DNA of 49,025 bases from Bacteroidota bacterium (lineage in GTDB: Bacteria; Bacteroidota; Ignavibacteria; UBA10030; BY39). Below the pieces are notes generated by a model. It was not told where the DNA came from and searched no databases. It saw only the letters and a program-made list of their open reading frames with translations. The translations under genes and the position numbers were made by a program. Where the stretch lies: NCBI GenBank assembly GCA_030017895.1, contig JASEGV010000015.1, positions 1 through 49,025 of the forward strand. Direction: 5' to 3'. Shown in pieces: positions 42,552-48,380 of this stretch (position 1 is the stretch's first letter; each line of letters begins with the position of its first letter).

Positions 42552-42650
42552 GTTTATCAGTAAATTTTGATTGACTATCATCTTAATATTCGCTAATTTT
42601 ACAGCAATAAATCTGTCTGCATTTAATCTTTTTTAAAAGGAGTATTGAGT

Positions 42651-44978
42651 ATGAAAAATTTTAAACCTTCCTCACTTTTCTTTTCTTTAATTTTAACAAT
42701 ATTATTTATCCTTCCTTCCCAAACCCAACCGCTTCGCCAATGGGTGGCGCATTATAATGGACCAGCGAATTCATCGGATGTTGTTACTTCAATGGTCGTA
42801 GATGATTCCGGCAGCATCATAGTAACAGGTTGGAGTAACGGAGTAGGTACAGGGGCTGATATAGCGACCATCAAGTACAACGCTGATGGGGTTACACAAT
42901 GGATACAAAGATACAACGGCAGTGGTGCCGGAGAAGATAAACCGGTAAAAGTTGTCGTTGACAGCGCAGAAAATGTTTATGTAACAGGGTGGAGTAATGG
43001 AACCGGTTTGGATATTGTTACCATTAAGTACGACAAAGCAGGTGTACAACAATGGTTAGTAAAATATATTGGAACAGGGGACGACAAACCTTCTTCGATC
43101 CAGGTCGATGATTCGATGAATGTCTATGTTACAGGCTCAACTGTCGTATCAGGTTCAGGGCTTGATATTGTTACTTTAAAATATAACAGTGCTGGTATTC
43201 TGATTTGGTCGAAGACTTATAACGGTCCGGGTAATGGTAACGATTATCCTGTTTATTTAAAGTTGGAAGATTATAATTATTGTTACATCGGTGGTGTTGC
43301 CAAAGAAACCGATAATGACTTCTTAGTTATTAAATATAATTCAAAGACGAGCGATATTGTTTGGACCAGGTTGTTCAAGCGAACGACCGGTGCAGAGGAT
43401 ATTTTAAAAGCAATGGTTTGGAGAGATGCTGATGAATTGTATCTGACCGGGACGACTAATACCGGTACAGGAAATGATATCCTGACAATGAAAGTAAATG
43501 GTATCACTGGAGACACAGTTTGGACGCATGTTTACAACGGAACAGCATCGGGTGATGACGTCCCGTTCGGAATTGCCTTGCATAGCAACTCTCGAGTTTA
43601 CATTACCGGTCGGTCAGTTGCTTTCGGTTCTTATTACGATATCATAACTTTACGATATGACCAGAGTGATGGGGATTTAATTTTTGAAACTCATTACAAC
43701 GGTCCCGCAAATGATGAGGATGTCGGTTATGCTATTTTGGGTGGAGGCTCTCCGCACATTGTTGGCTCAAGTTTCGGTATAAATTCAGGTAGAGATATTG
43801 TGTTTTTAGAAGTGAAAGCCGATGGCGATATCCGTTGGAAATTAAGATACAACGGCATTATGAGCAACGATGACGTTGCAGTGGCATTAGATTATTATAA
43901 AGATACATACTACATCGCGGGGAGTACATTAATGAAGAAAGGAACTCCTGATTTTCTCTTGATAAAGTATGTGAAAGATGATTTGATGAAATACCGGACA
44001 ATTACACAGAATGATTTACTTCTAAAAGGAGTCAGCTTAAAGCCTTATAATTCAACCGGTAATTTTGGTAACCTTCGCGACTCAGCATTCGCAAGAGCAT
44101 TCCCGAAAATAAAGAAATATTATGCCGGTGCACCTGGCGGTATGGTACTCGGTATCGCACGAGCAGATAGCCCGAACATCTGTGGATGGATACGCTTTAA
44201 ATCTGGAAAAGATTTAATGAAATTTGTTCCGCATACAGGTAGTCCTCGTGGTTTTGATATTGCTAAAGGTGTACCGTTCTTCAAAGAGCTTAAGGGTGCA
44301 AAATTGGCTGACCATAACAATAAATTAGCCGGAGAGCTTGCAACACTGAAAATAAATATCGGAGCCAGTGATGCTGAAATTACTCCAATCGGTTTAGGAG
44401 ATCTAATCTTCAACAATGGTGATACAAGTTATCATTATAATGGATATACGGTACGTCAATTAGCTCTGGTCGTAGATAACTTTTTATCATACTATCGAAA
44501 CTACAGCGGCGTCGATTGGGCACGGTTCGATACAATGTTAACTAAGATCAATAGTGCGTTTTCTGGACCTTATGCACAGGTCAGTCAGTCGCCATTTATG
44601 GTTTCGGGTGTGGCACTTTTGGATACGATTCCATTCCTACAAAAAAATCCTTTAGCTATTCAAATGCGTTTAGAATTTAAACCCGAGATGCTCGACGAAA
44701 CTCCAAACGAGTTTGCATTATATCAAAATTATCCCAATCCCTTCAACCCATCGACTACAATTAAATTTACGCTGCCAAGCGCTTCTTTGGTAACAGTGAA
44801 AATTTATGATATTCTAGGACGCGAGGTTGCAACATTACTCGAACAAGAAGAATTAGACGAAGGGGAACAGTCAATCGATTTCTTTGCCGATAATTTATCT
44901 TCTGGAATTTACTTTTGCAGACTTGTAGTGAATAAAGGAGAATTTCAGCAAATTAAAAAAATGATTCTGATGAAATAA
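42651..44978 (+). CDS. Secreted SBBP-repeat beta-propeller protein with type IX sorting domain
   Basis: Cell-surface or secreted protein, 775 residues from ATG 42651, eight bases after AAAGGAG (42636-42642). The signal peptide is SLFFSLILTILFILPS. Residues about 25-440 hold eight or so copies of an SBBP-type repeat (DSGSIIVTGWSNGVGTGADI, DSAENVYVTGWSNGTGLDIV, DSMNVYVTGSTVVSGSGLDI), each predicted to form one propeller blade. A linker domain follows, then the type IX sorting domain: YQNYPNPFNPSTTIKFTLP, VKIYDILGREVATLL, GIYFCRLVVNKGEF. Export through the type IX system is a strong inference from this tail. Single-gene unit. Confidence 0.92.
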   Translation: MKNFKPSSLFFSLILTILFILPSQTQPLRQWVAHYNGPANSSDVVTSMVVDDSGSIIVTGWSNGVGTGADIATIKYNADGVTQWIQRYNGSGAGEDKPVKVVVDSAENVYVTGWSNGTGLDIVTIKYDKAGVQQWLVKYIGTGDDKPSSIQVDDSMNVYVTGSTVVSGSGLDIVTLKYNSAGILIWSKTYNGPGNGNDYPVYLKLEDYNYCYIGGVAKETDNDFLVIKYNSKTSDIVWTRLFKRTTGAEDILKAMVWRDADELYLTGTTNTGTGNDILTMKVNGITGDTVWTHVYNGTASGDDVPFGIALHSNSRVYITGRSVAFGSYYDIITLRYDQSDGDLIFETHYNGPANDEDVGYAILGGGSPHIVGSSFGINSGRDIVFLEVKADGDIRWKLRYNGIMSNDDVAVALDYYKDTYYIAGSTLMKKGTPDFLLIKYVKDDLMKYRTITQNDLLLKGVSLKPYNSTGNFGNLRDSAFARAFPKIKKYYAGAPGGMVLGIARADSPNICGWIRFKSGKDLMKFVPHTGSPRGFDIAKGVPFFKELKGAKLADHNNKLAGELATLKINIGASDAEITPIGLGDLIFNNGDTSYHYNGYTVRQLALVVDNFLSYYRNYSGVDWARFDTMLTKINSAFSGPYAQVSQSPFMVSGVALLDTIPFLQKNPLAIQMRLEFKPEMLDETPNEFALYQNYPNPFNPSTTIKFTLPSASLVTVKIYDILGREVATLLEQEELDEGEQSIDFFADNLSSGIYFCRLVVNKGEFQQIKKMILMK

Positions 44979-44996: not shown

Positions 44997-47900
44997 ATGA
45001 CAGAATCTTACAACCGCATAAAACAATTAACCGAGCAATTCAAATCTCAGGAAGCCGCCTATCTTTCTCCGGGATATCAGGAATCGCAGGTCCGGCAGGA
45101 TTTTATTGATAAGTTATTTACTGCTCTCGGTTGGGATGTTACGCATGAAGTTCAAAAGAATCCTTACGAGCAGGAAGTAAAGATTGAAAATAAAGTTAAC
45201 ACATCCGGCTCGCAGCGGCGGGCTGACTATGCTTTTTTTACAGCACCTAACTTTCGCGATGTTAAATTTTTTGTTGAAGCAAAGAAACCATCAAGAAGCA
45301 TATCGAATCCCAACGACTATTACCAGACAATACGTTACGGATGGAATTCCAAAACACCTATAGCTGTGCTTACAGATTTTGAGGAATTTCATATACTCGA
45401 CTGCCGGTTTAAGCCCGATATAAAAACCGCACTCGACAGAAAGCTTGAGGTTTTCCATTATACCGATTTTGAGGATGAAGAGAAATTCAAAAGAATTTAT
45501 TATCTGTTCAGTCGCGTTGAGGTAGCTAATGGATCGATAGATAAGTATGCCGGTGCCTTGCCTAAGCCGCGTGCAAAGGCAGCAGAAAGAGGAATGTTCA
45601 AAGCCGAATACAAGGCTGTCGATGAGGCTTTCCTTGAAGCATTAGACGGATACCGCGAACAGCTTGCCCGTGCATTCAAAAATAAAAACCAGAATTTAGA
45701 AGGTGAGGAACTAACCGAAGCCGTTCAGCGCACAATTGACCGACTTGTGTTTATAAGATTTTTAGAGGATAAGTCGATTGAGGAACCGGCTATTGTCGCG
45801 ATAAAAGATAAACCCGCCGTGTGGGAAGCATTCGCATCTTTATGCAAACGACTTGAGCCGAAATACAACGGACTTGTTTTTAAGCCGCACAGGATTATTG
45901 ACAGTCCGGAGTTTAACCCTCCCGATAGTAAAATGTTTGCAGATATATGCAGCGAGCTTGCCGACCCAACCTCGCCTTATGATTTCGATAAAATACCGAT
46001 TTCAATTTTAGGCAGTATATACGAACGTTTCTTGGGTAAGGTTGTTAGCACTACCGATAAGCGTGCAAAGGTAATTGAGAAACCTGAAGTGCGCAAAGCC
46101 GGAGGTGTATATTATACGCCTGAATATATTGTACGGTACATTGTGAATGAGACTGTGGGGAAGCTGCTGTATGAAAAAAAGGGTATAGGAATTAGGGGCG
46201 AGGGTATAGGGGTTCAGGGATTAGAGATCATGAAAGGAGAATATGATGGCATTAAAAACTTACAAGGAATTGGAAGTATGGAAGCGGGCGATGTCGTTAG
46301 TGGAAGAAATTTACAAGTTGACGACGTTGCTTCCCAAAGAGGAGCAATACGGATTGAAGAGCCAGATGCAACGAGCAGCGGTCTCAATTCCGGCGAACAT
46401 AGCGGAGGGATACGGGCGGACGAATCGGAAGGAATACCTTCTGTTCCTGTCATACGCACGGGCATCGTTAATGGAATTGGAAACACATTTGGAAATAGCG
46501 CTGCGGGTTATTCCACTGAAGCAGGATCAAACATCACTGGCAATATCGTTGATGGAAGAAGTGGGAAAGATGCTCACGCGCCTAATACAATCCCTCAAAG
46601 CCCACTAAACCCTAATCCCTACACCCTAACCCCTAAGCTTACTCCCAAGCAAGTAGAAGATTTAAAGATAATAGATATTGCCTGCGGTTCAGGCTCGTTC
46701 CTCATTGAAGTGTATAGCCAGTTGTTAGATTACCATACAAAGTATTACAACGAGTTTCCAGAGAAAGCAAAGAAGGGCGATGTTGAAACACGCGAGGGCA
46801 AAATTGTATTATCGCTAAAAAAGCGACAGGAGATTTTAACAAACAATATTTACGGTGTTGATATAGATTTTCAGGCGACTGAAGTTACACAGCTTTCGCT
46901 TTATTTAAAACTGCTTGAAGATGTAACGATGAACGATGCTTTCCAATACAGTTTGCTGAAGGAGAAGATACTTCCCGATTTGAGGAATAATATTGTTTGC
47001 GGCAACTCGCTAATCGGTCGCGAGATACTCGAAGGCAAACTATTTGACGACGAAGCCGAGCATACACTAAAGCCGATGAACTTTGAGGATGCGTTTCCTG
47101 AAATAATGAATCCTTCGACACGCTCAGGAGGCGGCTTCGATGTGGTGGTGGGAAATCCACCATATAGAGTAATTGGAAAAGAGGATGCCGAAAGTCATAT
47201 AACTGGGTATTTACAATCAAAATATTCTTCATTTCAATACAAAGCTGATTTGTATCACCTGTTCATTGAAAGATCAGTCAGCTTACTGAAGGCTAATGGG
47301 ATGTTAGGATACATCACCCCGAATACTTGGTTTACTCTACAGTTCACAAAAAATTTGCGTAGTTTAGTATTGAACAATTCTTTGGTTCAGAAACTTCTTA
47401 TATTTAACCATAAAGTTTTTGGAGACGCAAATGTTGATACAGCCATAACTGTGTTAAGGAAAGGTACGAAAAGGGAAAATACTGACAAAGTTCAGGTTTG
47501 GTCATTTCCAAAGGTCTTCTCTCCTGAACTGATTTCAACAATGACACCACAAAGATTCTCTCAATTAAAATGGCAAAAAGATGAGCCGTATCGATTTGAA
47601 ACGAGAGTATCATTTCAGTTAGAACAATTGCTTTCAAAAATTAAATCTCAGAGTAAAGAACTTGGAGTTATTGCACGTGCTTCACTTGGAACCCAGGCAT
47701 ACAATAGTGGTAAACATACGAAAGAACAGATTGTTAAGCGTGTGTTCCATGCTTCAAAAAAGCTAAGTGACGAGTATCTACCAGAAATCGCTGGAAGTGA
47801 TGTTGGCAGATATAGCTTACAGTGGCAGAAAAAAGAATACATCAGATATGGTCCGTGGTTGCACGATTATAGAACTATGGAATGGCTTAGCGGTCAGAGA

Positions 47901-48380
47901 TTATTGATTAGAGAAATTACGGGAAAAGGTATCTACAAGATTTGTGCAACCTACCTTGAAGATACTTACTGCAATTATAAAACTATTCTAAATGTCATTT
48001 ACCGAGAAGATAGAACATTTTCTATGAAATTCTTGTTGGGCGTTTTGGACTCACGTTTGATTTCTTTTATTTATCCACTTGTATCCAATAAAATTGTGAA
48101 GGATAATTTTCCTCGTTTGTCTGTCGGTGACTTAAGACTTATTCCCATCCGCACAATCAACTTTGAGGATGCGGCGGACAAAGCCCGTCACGATAATATT
48201 ATAAAGCTTGTAGAGCAAATGTTAGATGCAAAAGCTAAGTTAGCCAATGCCAAAACAGAATCGGAAACCAACCGGTTTGAAATGCTTTGTAAAACCTTAG
48301 ACCGCCAGATAGACGAGGCAGTCTATGAGCTATACGGTTTAACGGAGGAAGAGATAAGGATTGTGGAAGTGGGGAAATAA
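44997..48380 (+). CDS. Type IIG-like restriction-modification protein carrying an in-frame IVS-element insertion
   Basis: 1127-residue fused restriction endonuclease and DNA methyltransferase. The N-terminal nuclease domain has a PD-(D/E)xK pattern (D77 in RRADYAFF, E94 and K96 in FFVEAKK). A helical linker leads to the N6-adenine methyltransferase: GGVYYTPEYIVRYIV (about 370-385), motif I ACGSGSF at 562-568, VYGVDID-type motif (YGVDIDFQATEV) and NPPY at 720-723. The target-recognition region fills residues 800-1127. Between LLYEKK and KLTPKQVEDLK, about 150 residues (396-546; GIGIRGEGIGVQG, NSGEHSGGIRADE) are low-complexity and unlike the family, because they are read through a foreign element. 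Without them the enzyme would be about 975 residues. No separate specificity gene is nearby. Confidence 0.9.
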   Translation: MTESYNRIKQLTEQFKSQEAAYLSPGYQESQVRQDFIDKLFTALGWDVTHEVQKNPYEQEVKIENKVNTSGSQRRADYAFFTAPNFRDVKFFVEAKKPSRSISNPNDYYQTIRYGWNSKTPIAVLTDFEEFHILDCRFKPDIKTALDRKLEVFHYTDFEDEEKFKRIYYLFSRVEVANGSIDKYAGALPKPRAKAAERGMFKAEYKAVDEAFLEALDGYREQLARAFKNKNQNLEGEELTEAVQRTIDRLVFIRFLEDKSIEEPAIVAIKDKPAVWEAFASLCKRLEPKYNGLVFKPHRIIDSPEFNPPDSKMFADICSELADPTSPYDFDKIPISILGSIYERFLGKVVSTTDKRAKVIEKPEVRKAGGVYYTPEYIVRYIVNETVGKLLYEKKGIGIRGEGIGVQGLEIMKGEYDGIKNLQGIGSMEAGDVVSGRNLQVDDVASQRGAIRIEEPDATSSGLNSGEHSGGIRADESEGIPSVPVIRTGIVNGIGNTFGNSAAGYSTEAGSNITGNIVDGRSGKDAHAPNTIPQSPLNPNPYTLTPKLTPKQVEDLKIIDIACGSGSFLIEVYSQLLDYHTKYYNEFPEKAKKGDVETREGKIVLSLKKRQEILTNNIYGVDIDFQATEVTQLSLYLKLLEDVTMNDAFQYSLLKEKILPDLRNNIVCGNSLIGREILEGKLFDDEAEHTLKPMNFEDAFPEIMNPSTRSGGGFDVVVGNPPYRVIGKEDAESHITGYLQSKYSSFQYKADLYHLFIERSVSLLKANGMLGYITPNTWFTLQFTKNLRSLVLNNSLVQKLLIFNHKVFGDANVDTAITVLRKGTKRENTDKVQVWSFPKVFSPELISTMTPQRFSQLKWQKDEPYRFETRVSFQLEQLLSKIKSQSKELGVIARASLGTQAYNSGKHTKEQIVKRVFHASKKLSDEYLPEIAGSDVGRYSLQWQKKEYIRYGPWLHDYRTMEWLSGQRLLIREITGKGIYKICATYLEDTYCNYKTILNVIYREDRTFSMKFLLGVLDSRLISFIYPLVSNKIVKDNFPRLSVGDLRLIPIRTINFEDAADKARHDNIIKLVEQMLDAKAKLANAKTESETNRFEMLCKTLDRQIDEAVYELYGLTEEEIRIVEVGK
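46181..46640 (+). mobile_element. IVS-like element inside the restriction-modification gene
   Basis: A discrete insert bounded by imperfect inverted repeats: a G-rich left arm at 46191-46224 (TTAGGGG.. and ..AGGGATTAG) and a C-rich right arm at 46605-46637 (CTAAACCC.. and ..CCCCTAAG). They align over 33-34 positions with about five mismatches and one gap. Extra G-rich sequence extends left to 46181. The arms enclose a complete four-helix-bundle gene with its own ribosome binding site. The insert interrupts the host protein between YYTPE and motif I yet keeps its frame. In RNA the arms would form a long stem, as at the base of 23S rRNA intervening sequences. Exact edges are uncertain by a few bases, and I see no clear target-site duplication. 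Confidence 0.75.
46246..46608 (+). CDS. Four-helix-bundle protein of the 23S rRNA intervening-sequence (S23/IVS) family
   Basis: 120-residue protein encoded inside the restriction-modification gene, shifted by one base from the host frame. The family pattern is complete: TYKELEVWKRAMSLVEEIYK, LPKEEQYGLKSQMQRAAVSI, PANIAEGYGRTNRKEYLLFL, ASLMELETHLEIALRV (PF05635/TIGR02436). AAAGGAG at 46233-46239 lies six bases before the ATG at 46246; an ATG at 46243 is the alternative. The stop TAA (46606) lies within the right inverted repeat. Family members occur in rRNA intervening sequences and as free-standing genes, and are related to the Avd accessory protein of diversity-generating retroelements. They bind nucleic acid, but their role in the element is unresolved. 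Confidence 0.9.
   Translation: MALKTYKELEVWKRAMSLVEEIYKLTTLLPKEEQYGLKSQMQRAAVSIPANIAEGYGRTNRKEYLLFLSYARASLMELETHLEIALRVIPLKQDQTSLAISLMEEVGKMLTRLIQSLKAH

Follow-up and report, generated by a model that had tools for sequence, protein, structure and literature searches.

A 23S-rRNA-IVS-type gene nested out of frame in a type IIG restriction-modification gene, and its probable nature as a mobile cassette

The window analyzed here is a stretch of 49,025 nucleotides, namely positions 1 to 49,025 of contig JASEGV010000015.1 from the Bacteroidota bacterium assembly GCA_030017895.1. Near its end, the gene of a type IIG restriction-modification enzyme, hereafter the host gene, contains a complete second gene of the S23 four-helix-bundle family (PF05635/TIGR02436). 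S23 genes have been described over three decades chiefly as passengers of 23S rRNA genes, where they lie within intervening sequences (IVSs), and we know of no function for them. We propose, with a probability of about 0.8, that positions 46176-46637 are a mobile S23 cassette of the 23S-rRNA-IVS type, tolerated as a translated hydrophilic linker in the host protein. The S23 gene and the complementary 7-nt tandem repeats at its ends would form a single cassette, which would have entered in frame at a permissive linker that joins the YYTPE segment to the S-adenosylmethionine (SAM)-binding motif I. Host ribosomes would then read the cassette in frame -1, with S23 as the reference, yielding a stop-free hydrophilic linker of ~153 residues, and S23 would be made from its own internal start. 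The host gene would survive because its reading runs through the insert in another frame. Sequence comparison establishes the insertion, the alleles without it, the paired heptamer ends, selection on S23, the lasting openness of the host frame and the presence of one element at different sites; we infer that both frames are translated, that the host enzyme works and that transposition was the route of entry.

The host gene, the insert and its ends

Domain searches of the host protein return hits with Eco57I (140.5 bits), N6_Mtase and TaqI_C (50.9 bits), together with a weak HSDR_N-type match at the N-terminus (HSDR_N_2 at threshold). The protein displays the motifs DIACGSGSF (SAM motif I) and NPPY, and its relatives of solved structure are adenine methyltransferases, such as TaqI and BrxX/PglX. 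A gamma-class N6-adenine methyltransferase with an Eco57I core, a C-terminal specificity domain and a predicted nuclease-like N-terminus are present in one chain. Judged by these features, the host is an Eco57I/TaqI-like type IIG restriction-modification enzyme. The domain scan of the host protein reported no intein domain.

Relatives of the host were sought with both host flanks in 60 related genomes. The linker between YYTP and motif I comprises 184 residues here and 30 in seven relatives (L106, L107, L108, L113, L114, L017 and L116), hence ~153 codons have been inserted, at 46176-46637 within a few bases. An earlier note, made from the letters of the window alone, had set the edges at 46181-46640, close to these refined limits, and had correctly placed the entry after the YYTPE segment and ahead of SAM motif I. 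It had also reasoned that an insertion would be contradicted if no relative lacked it; the seven short linkers are such relatives. Uninterrupted relatives were likewise found for the hosts of the N6_N4_Mtase family introduced below (G409, G492 and G433). At the same linker, other relatives carry extra in-frame repeat-like inserts that are unrelated to S23, exceeding the 30-residue form by 74 residues in L109, 44 in L126, 64 in L118 and 24 in L119, and in the sister species G001 the two host copies each carry unrelated repeat-like inserts there. The occurrence of unrelated inserts at one linker indicates that this site is generally permissive. L018 is a further relative with an insert of this kind.

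The nested open reading frame (ORF) lies on the same strand as the 1127-codon host ORF, one base out of register. Its 121-residue product matches PF05635 with 129 bits (cut-off 33.8; profile positions 1-105 out of 106) and TIGR02436 with 124 bits (cut-off 24; positions 1-109 out of 109), and its closest solved structure is 2GSC from Xanthomonas (E 8e-24). The Shine-Dalgarno-like motif AAAGGAG lies at the most suitable distance from the ATG at 46246, a start that yields the family-typical sequence MALKTYKEL, and a comparable motif is present at 23 of the 32 nested S23 loci. The description of a complete family member with its own ribosome-binding site inside a 1127-residue protein, given in the earlier note, therefore holds. 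These features bear on the idea that the S23-like ORF is a by-product of a host linker that is fortuitously S23-like in another frame. The -1 frame of S23 genes is often near-open, and synonymous shuffling gives a probability of 0.25 that it is open by chance in this copy; it is open in only 8 of 71 stand-alone S23 genes matched for GC content. Yet the strong family match, the ribosome-binding site, the third-position bias in the S23 frame, the uninterrupted relatives and the fact that most genomes have this gene without a host around it all contradict such a coincidence, which is scarcely credible. Translated in the host frame, the insert is hydrophilic (18% hydrophobic residues versus 32% elsewhere in the host). 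Its many disorder-promoting and few hydrophobic residues in this alternate frame are consistent with a tolerated linker.

The two arms that delimit the cassette (Table 1) pair end to end in the predicted RNA fold, which is stabler than all shuffled versions (z = -4.4). The heptads of the right arm all read exactly CCCTAnn. Such flanks are a trait of the S23 family: among 170 non-redundant S23 loci, flank identity reaches 0.38 at lag 7 and 0.36 at lag 14, against 0.26 in controls, and lag 7 outperforms all other lags from 2 to 21 in 95 of the 170 loci and in 7 of 168 control segments. Flank-to-flank complementarity with z < -3 is observed in 57% of the S23 loci and 1% of the controls. The family of the gene and the pairing of the ends with each other support its assignment in the earlier note as an IVS-type element. 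The stand-alone S23 genes of this genome (L002-L010) also tend to be bordered by ~7-nt tandem repeats complementary across the ORF; these are AT-rich, for instance GATTTAT repeats in L010.

Table 1. Positions of the host gene, the insert and its parts in the window
Feature	Position	Strand	Basis
Host gene, type IIG restriction-modification enzyme, 1127 codons, frame unbroken	44997..48380	+	ORF listing, domain matches, solved relatives
Inserted segment, ~153 host codons, between ..VGKLLYE and LTPKQVEDLKIIDIACGSGSF	46176..46637 (edges +/- ~6 nt)	+	Linker lengths; DNA edges against L109, L126 and L106-L108
Left arm, six degenerate G-rich heptads (GGGTATA GGAATTA GGGGCGA GGGTATA GGGGTTC AGGGATT)	46181..46222	+	Sequence reading; fold pairing with right arm
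Shine-Dalgarno-like motif of the nested gene, AAAGGAG	46233..46239	+	Sequence reading
Nested S23/IVS four-helix-bundle gene, 121 codons (alternative, likelier start: ATG at 46246)	46243..46608	+	ORF listing, PF05635, TIGR02436
Right arm, four C-rich heptads (CCCTAAT CCCTACA CCCTAAC CCCTAAG), complementary to left arm	46610..46637	+	Sequence reading, fold

Upstream of the host gene, positions 42645-44978 encode a protein of 777 codons, which contains repeated units of the GxDxxxxKY type and has a sorting-type tail at its C-terminus (YQNYPNPFNPSTTIKFTLP...).

Frame conservation and recurrence in methyltransferase genes

Comparison across distant lineages shows that S23, not the host reading, is what is conserved within the insert. 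The mean column identity is 67% in the S23 frame versus 44% in the host frame, whereas conservation in the host frame was the other result that the earlier note had regarded as incompatible with an insertion. Substitutions at S23 codon positions 1/2/3 number 400/255/1004 (nested pairs of >70% identity; the pairs are not independent), and this pile-up at third positions points to purifying selection on S23. The host frame through the insert is simply kept stop-free. Accordingly, codons ending in T stand before AAN/AGN/GAN codons in 0 of 792 cases in nested S23 genes versus 248 of 1896 in stand-alone ones; the zero is dictated by nesting itself, and it is the contrast with the stand-alone genes that shows how large the constraint is. 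In at least two copies, S23 appears to have decayed under a host frame that stayed open. The first, L253 (G000:C38), is a paralogous type IIG host of the same genome with the same insert, in which S23 is interrupted by a stop codon and has lost 81 nt; the host frame is still open over 1082 codons and the larger indels are multiples of three. The second, L278 (G422), is an N6_N4 methyltransferase whose host frame is open over 1090 codons; what is probably an S23 relic occupies the usual insertion site.

This conservation of the host register weighs on a first rival explanation, namely that the insert undergoes RNA-level processing in the manner of an rRNA IVS, RNase III cleaving the paired arms or the segment being spliced, so that the host protein would come from a processed mRNA or be silenced. 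The gene family and the end-to-end stem, whose predicted strength is high, are shared with the Coxiella 23S IVS, an element of 428 nt with a 28-bp terminal stem that is excised by RNase III (PMC4990558). However, all embedded cases, even those with a diverged or decayed S23, have kept the host frame open and in register, and RNA removal needs neither. Moreover, when RNase III cuts an rRNA IVS two pieces result, and a message would be broken. A search of positions 46000-46900 returned no Rfam match at E<=1, intron families included. Altogether, removal at the RNA level seems improbable.

The arrangement is not confined to the window. Within larger frames lie 12 of 80 S23 loci from GTDB genomes, and ~30 S23 genes inside larger open frames were collected from Bacteroidota, Chloroflexota, Cyanobacteria and Fibrobacterota. 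Profile A1, built from the alternate-frame translation of these 12 nested loci and devoid of any host information, distinguished long open host frames from closed ones in scans of Bacteroidota, Chloroflexota and Cyanobacteria. Among the 170 non-redundant loci, 31 are embedded (>=60 open codons on either side), always with the host reading in the -1 frame (31/31); the +1 frame is open in none of the 81 S23 loci checked. These embedded counts take in near-identical sister-species loci (L176/L188) and the paralogue L004, and there are consequently fewer independent insertions than counts. In L266, the host frame continues for just ~20 codons downstream of the insert. L147 (a 738-codon frame) was dropped as a nested case, its S23 gene lying before the likely start of an amylase-like gene. 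L195 and L201, which the tree groups with nested S23 genes, are not embedded. No S23 match was found in phage records, and the plasmid matches are, among those listed, annotated as S23/four-helix-bundle or hypothetical genes, as judged from annotations only.

DNA methyltransferases or their close kin account for 31 of the 33 hosts examined, and every nested locus of the three phylum scans has a methyltransferase-type host. The host families, assigned by Pfam for representatives and by BLASTP clusters for the remainder, are Eco57I-type IIG enzymes (several subfamilies), N6_N4_Mtase, N6_Mtase and DUF1156 anti-phage-type proteins, the latter classed as methyltransferases by their DPPY motif and NCBIfam kinship. 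The two other hosts, both weak cases that are still counted, are an unassigned PilX-like gene (L250) and, at the end of the CarB protein, a C-terminal half encoded on a short contig (L027). Methyltransferases make up a small share of genes, so their concentration here is hard to attribute to chance, although shared descent inside each host family lowers the number of independent events. Within methyltransferases the insertion positions vary: the element lies before or after motif I, or close to one or the other terminus. To account for this concentration in methyltransferase genes, we prefer retention in linkers that tolerate inserts, within defence genes that evolve fast, to recognition of a target site.

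The same bias could be explained differently if S23 were a domesticated partner of the methyltransferases, such as a DNA- or RNA-binding accessory protein, the two genes being linked by nesting. The 31 methyltransferase hosts out of 33, the purifying selection on S23, its distant similarity to Avd and the stand-alone S23 genes found in cas loci (PMC3936711) are in line with a partnership of this sort. It is nevertheless quite unlikely, given that S23 is lost or broken under an intact host frame in L253 and L278, that unrelated repeats occupy the same site in the sister species (L109, L126) and that the insertion positions within methyltransferases differ widely.

Mobility of the cassette and the points that weigh against it

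The cassette appears to be mobile, as the earlier note had suggested, and two lines of comparison support this. First, L252 (Nodosilinea) and L051 (Phormidium) carry S23 proteins that are 95% identical, at different places in different host genes. Over the element the two DNAs are ~90% identical, the flanking DNAs are unrelated, and the limits of similarity are (GGGAGTC)n arrays: one element at two unrelated sites. Second, the S23 tree requires 15 changes between nested and stand-alone labels, at least 5 of which are forced by well-supported branches. At the site studied here, the window and L026 differ by 9% of nucleotides in the S23 segment and by 17-36% in the neighboring host segments, which fits either a later exchange of the element or a stronger constraint on it. 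In L030, a type IIG gene of Chloroflexota, the S23 gene at this structural site belongs to a different S23 clade, and this argues for separate insertions there.

Four observations speak against this interpretation. The host tree of this clade interleaves S23 carriers with carriers of other repeats, so that an old insertion with later replacement is indistinguishable from recurrent insertion at one hot spot. A search for the ends elsewhere in the organism's own genome, suggested in the earlier note, located them in two host genes only; they are not multicopy, and recent local amplification finds no support. Neither a target-site duplication nor a recombinase was found for the nested cassettes. 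Finally, end pairing is weak or decayed in several nested elements.

The cyanobacterium G865 harbors at least 12 near-identical S23 copies (L254-L265) in a miniature inverted-repeat transposable element (MITE)-like unit ending in ACTGAYGTTACGCA..TGCGTAACATCAGT, with apparent 5-bp duplications read by eye (TAATA, TACTA, AATTA). This family was considered as the S23 transposition unit proper and rejected, since the MITE-like unit has other ends (ACTGAYGTTACGCA); the copies thus move by hitchhiking and not by a mechanism of S23 itself.

The heptads also raise the possibility of a contingency switch, in which gain or loss of a 7-nt unit would shift the host frame, turning the methyltransferase off or on, and the cassette would be kept for that reason. 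Seven is not divisible by three, perfect heptamer arrays surround S23 in L252, L051, L029, L034, L241 and L249, and the hosts are overwhelmingly methyltransferases, a class with phase-variable members such as ModA (PMC4525171). Against this, the arms in the window are imperfect repeats, poor at slipping, most nested copies are devoid of perfect arrays, no copy-number polymorphism was observed, and a role in phase variation was judged unlikely for the GGGAATC heptamers of Xanthomonas and Nostoc (PMC4692102). We consider such a switch unlikely, and the tolerated mobile cassette remains our preferred explanation. An extension of the latter is possible but tentative: S23 cassettes may be widespread dual-frame mobile elements whose protein gene has a -1 frame near to a stop-free disordered linker; this would allow them to reside in protein genes, chiefly DNA-methyltransferase and other defence genes of several phyla, and there to affect or switch the host enzyme.

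Comparison with known elements

S23 cassettes with paired heptamer ends, lying in frame inside methyltransferase genes, form a recurrent and apparently undescribed class. No report of S23 nested in protein genes was found in the open full-text literature; most subscription papers and bioRxiv preprints lie outside this coverage and novelty is therefore unproven. The concentration of a recurrent class in DNA methyltransferases and the heptamer nature of the ends come in addition to what the earlier note contained. The S23 family thereby gains a new habitat, protein genes of several phyla that nearly always encode DNA methyltransferases, as well as defined ends. These loci are clear cases of a mobile gene and its host coexisting by dual-frame coding, and they provide natural pairs of restriction enzymes with and without the insert for testing. 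They also matter for annotation pipelines, in which calling either the host or the nested gene will hide the other one.

Several known systems share part of this architecture. Structural homology has been reported between PF05635 and Avd (PMC10053308), the protein of diversity-generating retroelements (Avd/bAvd). The sequence similarity is distant, and the S23 product stays below both curated cut-offs of the Avd models (34 vs 80 bits for NF033474; 34.8 vs 40 bits for PF22296). The S23 genes of cas loci belong to the same family and also lie near defence genes, but they are reported as separate genes there, whereas here the gene is nested in the frame of another. The heptameric repeats of cyanobacteria and Xanthomonas (short tandemly repeated repetitive sequences, STRR, and GGGAATC) form period-7 G-rich tandem arrays, some of them inverted; they are under-represented in coding regions, and S23 is absent from the main text of that study (PMC4692102). 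Period-7 G-rich arrays are common to both.

By its layout, the insert can be likened to an in-frame palindromic element: it has inverted ends, lies in frame in a protein gene with uninterrupted homologues, and is presumably translated. Rickettsia palindromic elements and coding repetitive extragenic palindromic (REP) sequences are small repeats of ~100-150 nt with inverted ends, inserted in frame, translated as a tolerated extra peptide and without a gene of their own; here, in contrast, a complete conserved gene fills the other frame. A close parallel is the 23S rRNA IVS with an S23 ORF, as in Leptospira and Coxiella, which is alike in protein family, in a cassette size of ~430-460 nt and in complementary termini that form a stem around the ORF. 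Unlike these IVSs, the present element involves no rRNA: it resides in a restriction-modification gene instead of a 23S rRNA gene, its ends are heptamer arrays, and its host is a protein gene that is read through the insert.
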